Shown here: piece after piece, positions 26,754 through 31,968 of the stretch
How positions within the stretch are numbered: position 1 is the stretch's first letter
Layout of the letters: each line of letters opens with the position of its first letter
NCBI RefSeq assembly: GCF_900141995.1
Contig: NZ_FQZA01000003.1
Coordinates: forward strand, 186,001-250,000
DNA from: Palleronia salina
Lineage (GTDB): Bacteria; Pseudomonadota; Alphaproteobacteria; Rhodobacterales; Rhodobacteraceae
Direction: 5' to 3'
Length of the DNA stretch: 64,000 bases
Program-made: the position numbers and the translations under genes
Notes under the pieces: model-generated
What the model saw: only the letters and a program-made list of their open reading frames with translations
What the model was told of the DNA's origin: nothing
The model's database searches: none

Positions 26754-27251
26754 ATGCGGATACTGGGCGTCGATCCGGGGCTTCAGACCATGGGCTGGGG
26801 GGTGATCGAGGTTGATGGCTCGCGCCTGCGGCACGTGGCCAACGGCCATTGCACCTCCGAGACCGGCACGGCGCTCGGCCTACGGCTGATGGGGCTGCAC
26901 CGGCAGCTGGCCGATCTTCTGGTCGCCCACGCGCCCGACACCGCCGCGATCGAGCAGACGTTCGTGAACCGCGACGGGGCCGGCACGCTCAAGCTGGGGC
27001 AGGCCCGGGGCGTGGCGCTGCTGGCGCTGGCGCAATCCGGGATCGAGGTCGGCGAATACGCCCCCAACACGGTCAAGAAGACCGTCGTGGGCGTGGGCCA
27101 CGCCGACAAGCGCCAGGTCGAGCACATGGTGAAGATGCAGCTTCCCGGCGCGGTGCCGGCGGGCGCCGATGCCGCCGATGCGCTGGCCATCGCGCTCTGC
27201 CACGCGTTTCACCTGCAGGGCGCGCGGGCCATGGCGCGGGCGCGGGCATGA
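26754..27251 (+). CDS. ruvC: Crossover junction endodeoxyribonuclease RuvC
   Basis: RuvC resolves Holliday junctions. The 165-residue protein has the RNase H-like active site: D in [16 protein letters not shown] in AIEQTFVN and the C-terminal [11 protein letters not shown]...[14 protein letters not shown] acidic cluster. A GGCAGG site precedes the ATG. Its stop overlaps the ruvA start (ATGA), the standard ruvCA arrangement. Confidence 0.97.
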
Positions 27252-27916
27252 TCGGGCGGCTGGCCGGGCGGCTGATCCTGCGGGGCACCGATCACGTAAT
27301 GATCGACGTGGGCGGTGTCGGCTACGTCGTCTACGTCAACGAACGCACGCTGGCCGCGCTGCCCGGCGCGGGCGAGGCCGCGGCGCTTTATACCGACCTG
27401 CTGGTGCGCGAGGACCTGTTGCAGCTGTTCGGCTTCCTCACACCGGTGGAAAAGGAATGGCATCGCCTGCTGATGGGCGTGCAGGGGATCGGCGCGAAGG
27501 CGTCCATGGCGATTCTCGGCGCGCTGGGCCCCGATGGCGTCAGCCGCGCTATCGCGCTGGGCGATGCGGCGGCGGTGCGCACGGCGCCGGGGGTGGGGCC
27601 AAAGATTGCCCAGCGGCTGGTGAACGAGCTGAAGGACAAGGCGCCCGCCGTCATGGCCATGGGGGCCGGGCCCGTGGCCAGCGCCCCCGCCGCGCCCGCC
27701 GATCCGGACCCCGTCATCGCGCCCGACAGCTCGCCGCCCGCGTCGGCCACGGCCAGCAGCGCGGGCGCCCAGGCCGAGGCGCTGTCGGCGCTGGCCAACC
27801 TGGGCTATGCCCCCGCCGACGCCGCCCGCGCGGTGACCGAGGCCGCGGGTGACGGCGCAGACGACACCGCGTCGCTGATCCGCGCCGCGCTTAAGCGGCT
27901 GGCGCCGGCGGGTTAG
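27248..27916 (+). CDS. ruvA: Holliday junction branch migration protein RuvA
   Basis: RuvA tetramers hold the four-way junction and load RuvB. The 222-residue protein has the OB-fold N-terminus ([10 protein letters not shown]...[11 protein letters not shown]) and two helix-hairpin-helix motifs ([14 protein letters not shown] and [14 protein letters not shown]). A proline/alanine-rich flexible linker is followed by the C-terminal RuvB-binding helical domain ([20 protein letters not shown]). The stop is followed after only three bases by the start of the GIY-YIG gene rather than by ruvB. Confidence 0.96.
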
Positions 27917-27919
27917 CGC

Positions 27920-28804
27920 ATGGATTTCAATGACCTCCTTAGATCGGCTGAAATCGACCTACGACAAGTGTCCATCGTTCTCCACAAACCTGGAGACCTG
28001 AAGGTTCGAGCGATGCTAGCGACATTTATCGAACAGCGGCCCGAGCTGTTCGAAGCCTACCAAAGCACGCACCCTCCATTGCAGGAGGCCACGGTCAAAT
28101 CCCGTTGCTACCTCGCTTCGTTCTTCATGCGCGATCCGGGCGAGTTGGTTTTTCTCGCACTCTATGAGGTGAAAGACTGGAGCGAGACCGACGTCGATGG
28201 TCTAGCTGGAGATCCGATCTTTAGTGAAATGCTTCTCAAAGTTGACGGTGTCTCAAGCGAAGACATCTCAGCGCATATATCTTCGCGTCTTGCGGGACGC
28301 GCGCGCTTTGACTTCCGCCGAACTGCTCACCTTGCAGAGCTAGGTCGGCGTCTTGTCGTAGCGGACCCGGGAGGGAGAAATTACGTCCGGCGCGCGGATA
28401 CTACGGATTTGGAAGTCTTGGAGCTGAAGCGCGAGGCGCGAATTGCTTCACCGGTGCCGCCGTGGGATCAAATCTCAATTGATGCGCCGGAGATCGAGCA
28501 TCTGCCGAATGACTGGGCGTCCAGCTCGCGGCACTGGCGTGGCATCTACCTGATTTTGGATCTTTCAGACGGCGCCCGGTATGTCGGCTCCGCCTATGGC
28601 CGGGAGAACCTCTTGGGTCGGTGGCGCGTGCATACGGCCTCTGCTACCGGAGTGACCAAAGAGTTGCGTAAACGCGATACGAGACTTTTTCGGTTTTCGA
28701 TTCTCGAGTTGGTTTCCCCCACTGCCACACCTGAAGAGGTGGTCGCCCGCGAAAGGTCTTGGATGAAGCGCATTGGCACCATCGATAGGGGGTTAAATAC
28801 GTGA
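27920..28804 (+). CDS. GIY-YIG nuclease-family protein embedded in the ruv operon
   Basis: A 294-residue protein with a long family-specific N-terminal region starting [14 protein letters not shown]. Its C-terminal GIY-YIG endonuclease domain carries GIY (208-210), YVG as the YIG motif (221-223), the LLGRWRVH arginine region (R234) and a glutamate in [10 protein letters not shown] (E278) matching the metal-binding acid. From memory the same two-part architecture occurs in free-standing GIY-YIG proteins of other proteobacteria; their role is not established. It starts three bases after ruvA and its TGA overlaps the ruvB GTG (GTGA). The gene is visibly AT-richer than ruvA and ruvB, which suggests acquisition. 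It may act on junction DNA or as defence cargo; both are inference. Confidence 0.82.
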
Positions 28805-29829
28805 CCGACGCCCCCGATCCCGCGCTGCGCCCCGACCGGCTGCCCGACGATGACGGCCCCGCGCTGCGGCCCCAGTCTCTGGATGCCTTCACCGGGCAGG
28901 CCGAGGCGCGCGCCAACCTGAAGGTCTTCATCGAAAGCGCCCGGATGCGCGAGCGGGCGATGGATCACGCGCTGTTCCACGGTCCCCCGGGCCTGGGCAA
29001 GACCACCCTGGCGCAGATCGTCGCGCGCGAGCTTGGCGTGAACTTCAAGATGACCAGCGGCCCCGTCCTGGCCAAGGCGGGCGACCTGGCGGCGATCCTG
29101 ACCAATCTCGACGCGCGCGACGTGCTGTTCATCGACGAGATCCACCGCCTGAACCCGGTCGTCGAGGAGATCCTCTATCCCGCGCTCGAGGATTTCGAGC
29201 TGGACCTCGTGATCGGCGAGGGGCCGGCGGCGCGGTCGGTCCGGATCGAGCTTCAGCCCTTCACGCTGGTGGGGGCGACCACGCGGCTGGGCCTTCTGAC
29301 CACCCCCCTGCGCGACCGGTTCGGCATCCCGGTCCGGCTGCAATTCTATACCGTGGACGAGCTGTCGGACATCGTGGCGCGGGGCGCGCGGATGATGGGG
29401 GTGGCGGCCGATGCCGACGGCGTGCGCGAGATCGCGGCGCGGGCGCGGGGCACGCCCCGGATCGCCGGGCGGCTGCTGCGCCGGGTGGTGGATTTCGCGC
29501 TGGTCGATGGCGACGGTCGGATCACCCGCGCCCTGGCCGACGATGCACTGACGCGGCTGGGCGTGGACCGGATCGGTCTCGACGGCGCGGACCGGCGATA
29601 CCTGCGGCTGATCGCGGAGCACTACCAGGGTGGTCCGGTGGGGATTGAAACGCTGTCGGCGGCGCTGAGCGAAAGCCGCGACGCGCTGGAAGAGGTGATC
29701 GAACCCTACCTTCTGCAGCAGGGCCTGATCCAGCGCACGCCGCGGGGGCGGATGCTGACGCAGGGGGCCTGGACCCACCTGGGCCTGCCGCGGCCCCGCA
29801 GCGACGTGGGCGGGGACCTGTTCGACTAG
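28801..29829 (+). CDS. ruvB: Holliday junction branch migration helicase RuvB
   Basis: RuvB is the AAA+ motor of branch migration. The 342-residue protein has the N-terminal [18 protein letters not shown], Walker [10 protein letters not shown], Walker [13 protein letters not shown], sensor-1 LVGATTRLG and the C-terminal winged helix ([28 protein letters not shown]...[18 protein letters not shown]). The start is GTG at 28801, inside the GTGA overlap with the GIY-YIG gene. Ribosomes that finish the nuclease are thus well placed to start RuvB. Confidence 0.96.
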
Positions 29830-29846
29830 CCCGGCCGGCGCGCGGG

Positions 29847-30503
29847 TCAGCTCATCGACAGGTCGTCGAAGATGTCGGTGTCACTTGCCGGCTCGATCGC
29901 CTGAAGCATCAGGATCGCGAAGAAGATGATCCCGAGGACGATCGAGGTGAAAACCGAAAGCCCGTCCGCGACCGCGAGCGAGACGGAGCTTCGCAGGTCG
30001 AAGGAATGCGCCATGGTCACGCTGCCGACAGTGGTCAGGCCGAACAGGGCGCCGGAGAGATCCACGAACGAGCGACGAGGCCAGCCACGCGCCGTGCGGC
30101 CGATGAGCCCGCAGGCCAGAATGATCAGCCCGCCGGTCAGGTAGGACATGTGGTCATCGGGGGCCAACGCGATCGGCAGCATGCCGTCGATGCCGGCGTC
30201 GCTCGCGGTCAGTCGGACGCATATGTTCAGCGCGACGATGAAGATCACGGCGGCGCAGACCCGTCCTGCCAGCAGGCGAAGGCTGTCCCGATCGCTGGTG
30301 GCCAGCAGCAGCGCCACGGCGAGCCCGAAGAACGAGACCTGCGTTGTCGGAACGATGGCGGGATAATAGGCGCGGCCGCGCACCCAGAGATCATTGCCGC
30401 CCACCCATCCGACGATCAGACCGGACACGCAGAAGGCGATCACGGCGAGCGAGACCGCGAAGAGGACACGATTCAGGACGGGATGCATCATCGGCGATTT
30501 CAC
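29847..30503 (-). CDS. Orphan polytopic membrane protein
   Basis: A 218-residue protein with about six or seven hydrophobic helices separated by short loops (for example NRVLFAVSLAVIAFCVSGLIVGW, SFFGLAVALLLAT, AAVIFIVALNICVRL, YLTGGLIILACGLIG and IVLGIIFFAILMLQAI). It ends in a short acidic tail. It looks like the membrane sensory part of a signalling protein (MASE-like), but no catalytic domain follows. The start is GTG 30503 or ATG 30491. It is convergent with ruvB with a 17-base gap. Function unknown. Confidence 0.6.
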   Translation of the reverse strand: MKSPMMHPVLNRVLFAVSLAVIAFCVSGLIVGWVGGNDLWVRGRAYYPAIVPTTQVSFFGLAVALLLATSDRDSLRLLAGRVCAAVIFIVALNICVRLTASDAGIDGMLPIALAPDDHMSYLTGGLIILACGLIGRTARGWPRRSFVDLSGALFGLTTVGSVTMAHSFDLRSSVSLAVADGLSVFTSIVLGIIFFAILMLQAIEPASDTDIFDDLSMS

Positions 30504-30588
30504 TTCACGAATGCTGTCCCTTAAGCGGGTAAGAATCAGAGTTTATCAGGGCGCCGCAACAACTCAATGATGTATCGGGGTGTTCGGC

Positions 30589-31968
30589 CTAGAGCCGCCT
30601 TGCCCAAAGGTCGTAGTCTCCGGCCTCGTCCACCTCGACCTCGACGACCTGACCCGCCGAGAGGTCCGCGAAATTCTCGTCGATATAGAGGTGCCCGTCG
30701 ATCTCGGGTGCGTCGCCCATGGTCCGGCAGGTGGCCGCCTCGTCATCGACGCTGTCGACGATGACCTGCATACGCTTGCCGACCTTCGCCTCCAGCCGCG
30801 CGGCCGAGATCGCTTGCGCCTTTTCCATGAACCGCTCCCACCGCTCCTGCTTGACCGGGGCGGGGACGTGGTCGGGCAGGGCGTTCGAGCGGGCGCCCTC
30901 GACATTCTCGTATTGAAAGCACCCGACGCGATCCAGCTGCGCCTCGTCCAGCCAGTCGAGCAGGGTCTGGAATTCTTCCTCGGTCTCGCCGGGATAGCCG
31001 ACGATGAAGGTCGAGCGCAGGGTGATGTCGGGGCAGTCGCGGCGCCAGGCGGCGATCTCGTCCAGCGTGCGCGCGGCCGCGGCGGGGCGCGCCATGCGCC
31101 TGAGCGTGTCGGGATGGGCGTGCTGGAACGGGATGTCCAGGTAGGGCAGCAGCCCCGAGGCCGGGTCGGCCATGTGCGGGATCAGCTCGCGCACGTGGGG
31201 GTAGGGATAGACATAGTGCAGCCGCACCCAGGCCCCGAGCGTCCCGAGCTCGCGCGCAAGATCCAGGATCGGCGCCTTCGCCTCGCGGTCCTTCCAGTCG
31301 GTGCCATAGGCGCTGGTGTCCTGGCTGATGACGAGCAGCTCGCGCACGCCGGCCTCGAACAGCTTTTCCGCCTCGCGCATCACAGCCTTGGCCGGCCGCG
31401 ATTGCAGCCGCCCGCGCATGTCGGGGATGATGCAGAACTTGCACTTGTGGTTACAGCCTTCCGAGATCTTCAGGTAACTGTAGTGTCGCGGTGTCAGGCT
31501 GACGCCCCGGGCGGGCAGCAGGTCGACGAACGGGTCCGGATCCGGCGGCACCGCGGCGTGCACGGCATCGAGCACCTGTTCGTATTGATGCGGCCCGGTC
31601 ACGGCCAGCACGCGGGGATGCGCGCCGGTGATATAGTCGGGCTCGGCCCCCAGGCAGCCGGTGACGATGACGCGCCCGTTCTCGGTCAGCGCTTCGCCGA
31701 TGGCGTCCAGGCTTTCGGCCTTGGCGCTGTCGAGGAACCCGCAGGTGTTCACGATCACCGCGTCGGCGCCCGAGTAGTCGGGCGAGATGCCGTAGCCTTC
31801 GGCCCGCAGGCGGGTCAGGATGCGCTCGCTGTCGACCAGCGCCTTGGGACAGCCGAGGCTGACCATGCCGATGGTGGGCTGGTTGCGGCCCGGCCGCACC
31901 GTGCCGAGGTCACGTTCGAGCCGGGGGTTCGACAGGTCGGGGCGAAGGTCGGGCGGGTTCTGTGCCAT
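30589..31968 (-). CDS. rimO: Ribosomal protein S12 methylthiotransferase RimO
   Basis: A 459-residue radical SAM enzyme that adds a methylthio group to the conserved aspartate of ribosomal protein S12. The N-terminal UPF0004 domain has cluster cysteines ([29 protein letters not shown]). The radical SAM motif is CNHKCKFC, and the C-terminal TRAM domain ends [33 protein letters not shown] and [10 protein letters not shown] are typical of RimO rather than MiaB. The ATG at 31968 (MAQNPPD) fits the family better than the ATG at 32010. Confidence 0.95.

Follow-up and report, generated by a model that had tools for sequence, protein, structure and literature searches.

Why does a gene for a predicted nuclease stand inside the ruv operon of Palleronia salina, directly before ruvB? 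A preliminary description of the window (the whole 64,000-nucleotide stretch of P. salina DNA analysed here) reported a 294-codon gene between ruvA and ruvB, three bases from the former and overlapping the latter at a GTGA, an arrangement borne out by the open reading frames and the sequence. We call this gene uzuA. The locus comprises the following features:

26754..27251, plus strand: ruvC (Pfam RuvC, 142 bits)
27248..27916, plus strand: ruvA (Pfam RuvA_N, HHH_5 and RuvA_C), with its TAG stop at 27914-27916
27917..27919, plus strand: 3-bp gap from the ruvA stop to the uzuA ATG (sequence)
27920..28804, plus strand: uzuA, UzuA-family GIY-YIG nuclease of 294 aa with an ATG start (PADLOC UzuA, E 7e-52; PF01541; AlphaFold2 mean pLDDT 95.3)
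27920..28453, plus strand: N-terminal domain, residues 1-178 (AlphaFold2 mean pLDDT 96.8; weak ASCH/YTH-like Foldseek matches; conservation)
28541..28771, plus strand: C-terminal GIY-YIG nuclease domain, residues 208-284, I-TevI-like (Pfam; Foldseek and profile matches to 1ln0)
28801..28804, plus strand: GTGA, where the uzuA stop (TGA, 28802-28804) overlaps the ruvB start (GTG at 28801) (sequence)
28801..29829, plus strand: ruvB (Pfam and NCBIfam RuvB), its first ~480 nt being the putative co-transferred flank

The AT-richness noted in the preliminary description is also evident: uzuA has a GC content of 56.0% and a GC3 of 0.607, against GC3 of 0.90, 0.90 and 0.91 for ruvC, ruvA and ruvB, and its GC3 is the lowest among 43 long ORFs of the window that were kept by a rough composition filter. 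However, GC3 is lower than in the host ruv gene for 26 of the 27 uzuA copies that we located at ruv sites, with the P. salina copy showing the largest difference (0.30). Since this is a habit of the group, low GC3 alone is no proof of recent arrival. No direct or inverted repeats were found at either edge of uzuA.

We also observed that, just 3' of ruvB, identity to the sister species (G006) drops to 60-84% per 100 bp at window positions 29830-30600, a stretch surrounding a minus-strand ORF (29847-30503); on either side, identity is mostly 90-97% in ruvB and mostly 93-100% in the rimO-like sequence that follows. This dip possibly reflects allele exchange or a fast-evolving membrane protein.

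UzuA has an I-TevI-like nuclease domain and a conserved N-terminal domain

The PADLOC model for UzuA, the protein of the catalogued anti-phage system Uzume, matches residues 1-293 of the 294-residue product (E 7e-52), in support of the earlier suggestion that a candidate defence-type gene overlaps the ruvB start; the defence label is the one that the model library attaches to such sequence matches. The same model is matched by all 44 scanned rows, the P. salina copy included, one of them with an extra weak match to a homing-endonuclease model and another with a weak match to BrxE. PF01541 (GIY-YIG) is matched at residues 208-284 with 24.3 bits, against a curated cut-off of 22.6.

Conserved tyrosine, tyrosine, arginine and glutamate residues have catalytic roles in GIY-YIG nucleases. 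The GIY, YVG, arginine and glutamate motifs picked out in the preliminary description are real: all 44 intact copies chosen for alignment, that of P. salina among them, have Y210, Y221, R234 and E278, and the same holds for H22, G208, G223, A225, G227, G244, L249, L262, L292 and N293. Thus, loss of E278 or Y221 throughout the family, proposed earlier as a check on nuclease function, was not seen in these 44 rows. Near-invariant residues of the N-terminal domain include Q48, F68, F78 and G80. Conservation of N-terminal residues across groups that occupy different genomic sites suggests a shared ligand rather than site-specific reading of DNA. The gene appears to be under purifying selection, with dN/dS of 0.08-0.12 in six pairs, some of which have saturated dS. 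Other libraries yielded a PHROGs match to a phage family of unknown function and a below-threshold NCBIfam match to group I intron endonucleases (E 0.0024).

An AlphaFold2 model of the whole protein, built on the 44-row alignment, has a mean pLDDT of 95.3, and its best match among solved structures is the catalytic domain of the homing endonuclease I-TevI (1ln0; Foldseek probability 1.00, E 1.3e-3, TM 0.75 of the target), which a profile search also matched (E 1e-6). Foldseek matches to the N-terminal 178 residues are weak and led by ASCH proteins, YTH proteins and the 5hmC restriction enzyme PD-T4-3; the best five have probabilities of 0.60-0.85, TM under 0.4 and E above 0.04, and the comparison with PD-T4-3 (9u75) gives a probability of 0.72-0.85 and TM of 0.26-0.36. 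Sequence searches found no solved homologue of this domain and no Pfam match at E 0.1, and no known DNA-binding module appeared among the 50 of 152 Foldseek matches listed. ASCH and YTH domains are PUA-like; going by the names of these weak fold matches, the N-terminal domain may be a PUA-like base reader.

The likeness to I-TevI, and the sub-threshold match to group I intron endonucleases, point to the main rival of a defence function. A free-standing homing endonuclease would cut uzuA-free genomes in the 5' part of ruvB, and repair from the donor would always copy uzuA, along with ruvB 5' sequence, to the same spot, the defence label being secondary or arising from the same cutting. We regard this as rather unlikely. 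The N-terminal domain, with no recognised DNA-binding module and with conserved residues common to groups at different sites, argues against it, although a module of an undescribed kind may be present; evidence on its other predictions is given below.

uzuA is missing from most related genomes

Including P. salina in each count, matches at E 0.001 were obtained in 2 of 14 genomes of the genus, 26 of 394 of the family, 28 of 390 of the order and 15 of 385 of the class. Hence, 12 genus genomes and 362 order genomes had no match, although RuvB was present in all 131 genomes sampled from the order. This distribution bears on the idea, raised in the preliminary description, of a partner that nicks junctions held by RuvA. 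Position in the operon, overlap with ruvB and purifying selection would all suit a Holliday-junction or branched-DNA nuclease working with RuvAB. Such a partner would not be expected to be missing from most genomes that have ruvB, to have relatives that lie far from any ruv gene (in prophages, on plasmids or next to restriction genes), or to conflict with RuvCAB in its tree (see below). We found the proposal unsupported and consider it very improbable.

The sister species G006 has an empty site, with RuvB 99% identical to that of P. salina and about 96% identity around the site, as do the three species closest after it. In G006, G007, G009 and G012, ruvA and ruvB overlap by ATGA. Because the sister and the three next closest species are empty, gain of uzuA in the P. 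salina lineage is the simpler history. In another congener, G008, a 439-bp ruvA-ruvB spacer (L015 1058-1498) has no UzuA match.

The order sample of 131 genomes comprised 5 occupied genomes already in our set, 109 from which we fetched the junction and 17 that were left out. Spacers between ruvA and ruvB were measured directly in 82 of the 109 junctions: 66 were under 60 bp, 12 were of 60 to <300 bp and 4 were at least 300 bp. A further 23 junctions were placed by way of ruvA, after which the fetched piece continued for <200 bp in 21 cases and ~1 kb in 2; the remaining 4 (L194, L211, L226 and L233) had no readable ruvA. Among these loci, none of the 103 entered in the RuvC and RuvA tree analysis below had a match to P. 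salina UzuA at E 1e-5. The four spacers of at least 300 bp contain htpX, recognised by eye and confirmed in L270 as Peptidase_M48. Several family genomes carry this M48 metalloprotease gene in the ruvA-ruvB gap (L270 2169-3077, by Pfam; L184, L251, L249 and L077, by eye), indicating that the junction tolerates different inserts. In L226 and L233, both of genus code g321, a RuvA match is absent from ~3 kb upstream of ruvB, and the ruv operon may be split in these genomes.

One group of UzuA proteins occupies a single site next to ruvB

Across the family and order searches, 23 genomes gave matches at E 1e-50 or better, 20 of them at the ruv site; in the other three, uzuA lies beside a phage tail terminator gene (G200 and G906) or on a 3.3-kb contig (G114). 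With the congener G002 and six MAG contigs added to the 20 genomes, we count 27 ruv-site copies, P. salina included. These form one group (SH-aLRT 99) in a 59-row UzuA tree, from which G739 (internal stop) and V99, V104-V108, G906, G211 and G017 (partial, broken or open-ended) were left out. Both ruvA and ruvB are on the contig for 24 of the 27 copies; the contig of G130 lacks ruvA, and those of L032 and L035 stop short of ruvB. Where the contig includes ruvB (25 copies), a 4-bp overlap between the uzuA stop and an in-frame ruvB start is seen in 20, and uzuA is probably translated together with ruvB through this overlap. In G143, htpX lies between ruvA and uzuA, and uzuA still abuts ruvB, so that the constant neighbour of uzuA is the start of ruvB. 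Among relatives in named contigs, 7 of 10 (Rhodobacteraceae or alphaproteobacterial) adjoin ruvA and/or ruvB, and the other three, from sphingomonads, lie elsewhere.

A single recent insertion of AT-rich cargo, landing by chance between ruvA and ruvB, would fit the low GC3 and the empty sister species. The finding of 26 more copies, from one group and all at this site, contradicts a one-off event, and repeats are absent at the gene edges; we leave this reading almost no probability. Of the recent-insertion proposal in the preliminary description, arrival in the P. salina lineage thus stands as the simpler history, but a one-off event does not, given that the same group occupies the site in many genera.

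Confinement of 27 copies to one site, a position between conserved genes where close relatives such as G006 have an empty allele, and adjacency to ruvB even where htpX separates it from ruvA are all consistent with homing. So too are degenerate copies at the site. In G866, one open frame of 215 codons retains UzuA-like stretches, with GIY replaced by GMP and YVG by HVG, such that both tyrosines are lost. G323 retains the N-terminal part and lacks the nuclease. The congener G002 (L006 7381-7977) encodes a shortened UzuA of 198 aa with both ends kept and roughly 95 middle residues missing in frame.

The history of uzuA conflicts with that of the ruv operon

For 21 ruv-site taxa, the RuvCAB topology was rejected by the UzuA data (dlogL 371, AU 4e-7) and the UzuA topology by the RuvCAB data (dlogL 169); G219 was left out of the AU test as a long branch. 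Simple vertical inheritance within the ruv operon is therefore rejected. On a FastTree phylogeny of RuvC and RuvA with 142 rows, in which occupied rows are over-sampled, 25 occupied and 115 empty rows require at least 19 changes. Some shared signal is left (Mantel 0.38, with 1 of 2000 permutations as high), for example within a Salipiger-type genus. The pattern of occurrence calls for horizontal movement into a fixed place.

One pair of genomes carries a conversion-like tract over uzuA and the 5' end of ruvB. Between G843 and G979, uzuA is 95.7% identical, ruvB is 100% identical over bp 1-100, 94% over 101-400 and 87% from 401 onwards, and ruvC is 84% identical; dS is 0.138 for uzuA and 0.402 for ruvB. 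The first 100 bp of ruvB are thus 13 points above its 3' part, whereas in 53 uzuA-free pairs, which are not independent of each other, the same stretch averages 3 points below the 3' part and exceeds it by 5.7 points at most. No such tract was found in the 12 other occupied pairs compared (1 of 13 overall).

A flank signal was nevertheless detected across the group. With overall operon distance removed, uzuA distance among 22 taxa correlated with that of ruvB nt 1-480 (partial r 0.41, 0 of 2000 permutations; r 0.41 and 0 of 2000 after thinning to 18 taxa) and did not correlate with ruvB 480-1050 (-0.07) or either half of ruvA (-0.13 and -0.03). In 120-nt windows, the signal was present in three of the first four ruvB windows, the second being without it. 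ruvC also correlated with uzuA (r 0.28, 4 of 2000; thinned, 0.19, 90 of 2000), and a tract confined to ruvB does not account for this. For P. salina itself (G000), the junction window compared with G006 has 11 mismatches in 90 bp, a level reached by 3.0% of other windows, and co-conversion there is only suggestive.

The tree conflict, the one-sided signal into ruvB and the degenerate copies would be expected of a homing gene, and T-even free-standing endonucleases are described as cutting genes next to their own from a distance and leaving co-conversion tracts (PMC2988022). Against homing, the tract is seen in 1 of 13 occupied pairs only, divergence beside the P. salina insert is just mildly raised, and a very similar pattern arises from plain homologous recombination acting on an optional gene.

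Relatives of uzuA lie in prophages, on plasmids and at other sites

We examined 19 prophage-type or fragment loci. In 11 of these, two encoding identical proteins, uzuA lies antisense between the tail terminator and tail tube genes. Three more have it beside the terminator gene only; in four others, namely V100, G114 and two fragments, neither tail gene was found; and one, G918, which belongs to another group, has both tail genes with uzuA elsewhere. Among 80 contigs with the terminator gene, kept from a larger number found, 3 have uzuA (all among the 11), 66 lack it and 11 are too short; calling absence needed at least 900 bp visible, giving 69 readable contigs. Hence, most but not all prophage relatives share a fixed site between two tail genes. 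Such a site, empty in 66 of 69 readable contigs, is what homing would produce; V100 and G114, prophage-group copies away from the tail-gene site, count against it.

Matches were obtained in 203 plasmid records, 72 of them covering at least 80% of the protein. A type I hsdR gene ends 25 bp before one relative (L158), and another stands beside an integrase gene (L162). A search for a donor among phage records returned just 3 weak matches. In the sphingomonads, the UzuA frame begins at the gatB stop codon in L034 and L036 (about 5980), gatB being identified by Pfam in L036, to which L034 is 82% identical; the end of gatB is possibly another group-specific site. In a third sphingomonad contig, L033, the UzuA frame follows a namZ gene.

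A broader version of homing would extend to all of these groups: UzuA proteins would be homing genes of chromosomes and prophages, each group cutting a conserved gene beside its own site (ruvB, in its 5' part, for the group at the ruv site; a tail gene for most of the prophage copies; perhaps gatB for those of sphingomonads), and the anti-phage activity catalogued as Uzume would be the same cutting directed at incoming DNA, such that one family is both selfish element and immune system. We consider this unlikely as well.

Discussion

Our preferred explanation, held tentatively and at somewhat less than even confidence, is that uzuA encodes a defence nuclease resembling restriction enzymes, is retained as an optional gene locked to one site and spreads by recombination through ruvB. 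The N-terminal domain would recognise foreign, possibly base-modified, DNA, which the I-TevI-like GIY-YIG domain would then cut. In the Rhodobacteraceae group, uzuA would be an optional gene locked immediately 5' of ruvB. It would pass between species when recombination extends into the conserved 5' part of ruvB, and would often be lost or decay at the site. Its own cutting might or might not drive this spread; we place plain recombination ahead of homing because N-terminal residues are common to groups at different sites, and because wider relatives occur after hsdR, beside an integrase gene and on plasmids. On the other side, a defence gene under ordinary recombination is not obviously confined to one non-mobile site in 27 copies, as homing predicts.

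Uzume is reportedly a one-gene, experimentally tested system, validated in its founding paper. UzuA of P. salina shares full-length homology with the UzuA/Uzume models (PADLOC PDLC03973 and PDLC03974). Uzume of the Bacillus cereus group is described as mostly plasmid-borne (PMC11811056), whereas the P. salina group is locked to the ruvB start. A 2026 review gives the mechanism of Uzume as unknown, in a table entry shared by many systems (PMC12926258).

Two other comparisons are informative. With the T-even phage Seg free-standing GIY-YIG homing endonucleases and the I-TevI catalytic domain, uzuA shares a fold closest to I-TevI, a location as a lone gene between conserved ones, patchy occurrence and a signal of flank co-transfer; it differs in having a C-terminal nuclease domain, a 178-residue N-terminal domain with no recognised DNA-binding module and a place in a bacterial chromosomal operon, and it is known here from sequence. 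Phage homing endonuclease genes near essential genes have been discussed (PMC10448857). CMoRE/PD-T4-3, a single-component GIY-YIG type IV restriction enzyme, has been described as a case in which one GIY-YIG protein acts as a modification-dependent restriction enzyme (PMC12923530). Like uzuA, it combines a GIY-YIG nuclease and a second domain in one protein, and its fold weakly matches the UzuA N-terminal domain; unlike CMoRE/PD-T4-3, UzuA has the opposite domain order, with the nuclease C-terminal, and GIYLI...YVG instead of GIYxY-YIG. Fusions of EVE domains to GIY-YIG nucleases have been reported (PMC7641849). In titles and the opening parts of abstracts on Uzume, UzuA, GIY-YIG proteins with ruvA/ruvB, insertions between Rhodobacter ruvA and ruvB, and free-standing homing, we found no ruvB-locked group that moves with the ruvB flank.

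The ruv-site group lends itself to study: its alleles range from intact through degenerate to empty, its fold is predicted and ruvB nt 1-480 is a predicted target or recombination zone. If uzuA homes, selfish nucleases of bacterial chromosomes would be linked with phage defence, with a core repair operon as their landing place. If it does not, a single defence gene can travel without a mobile element, riding a conserved neighbour.
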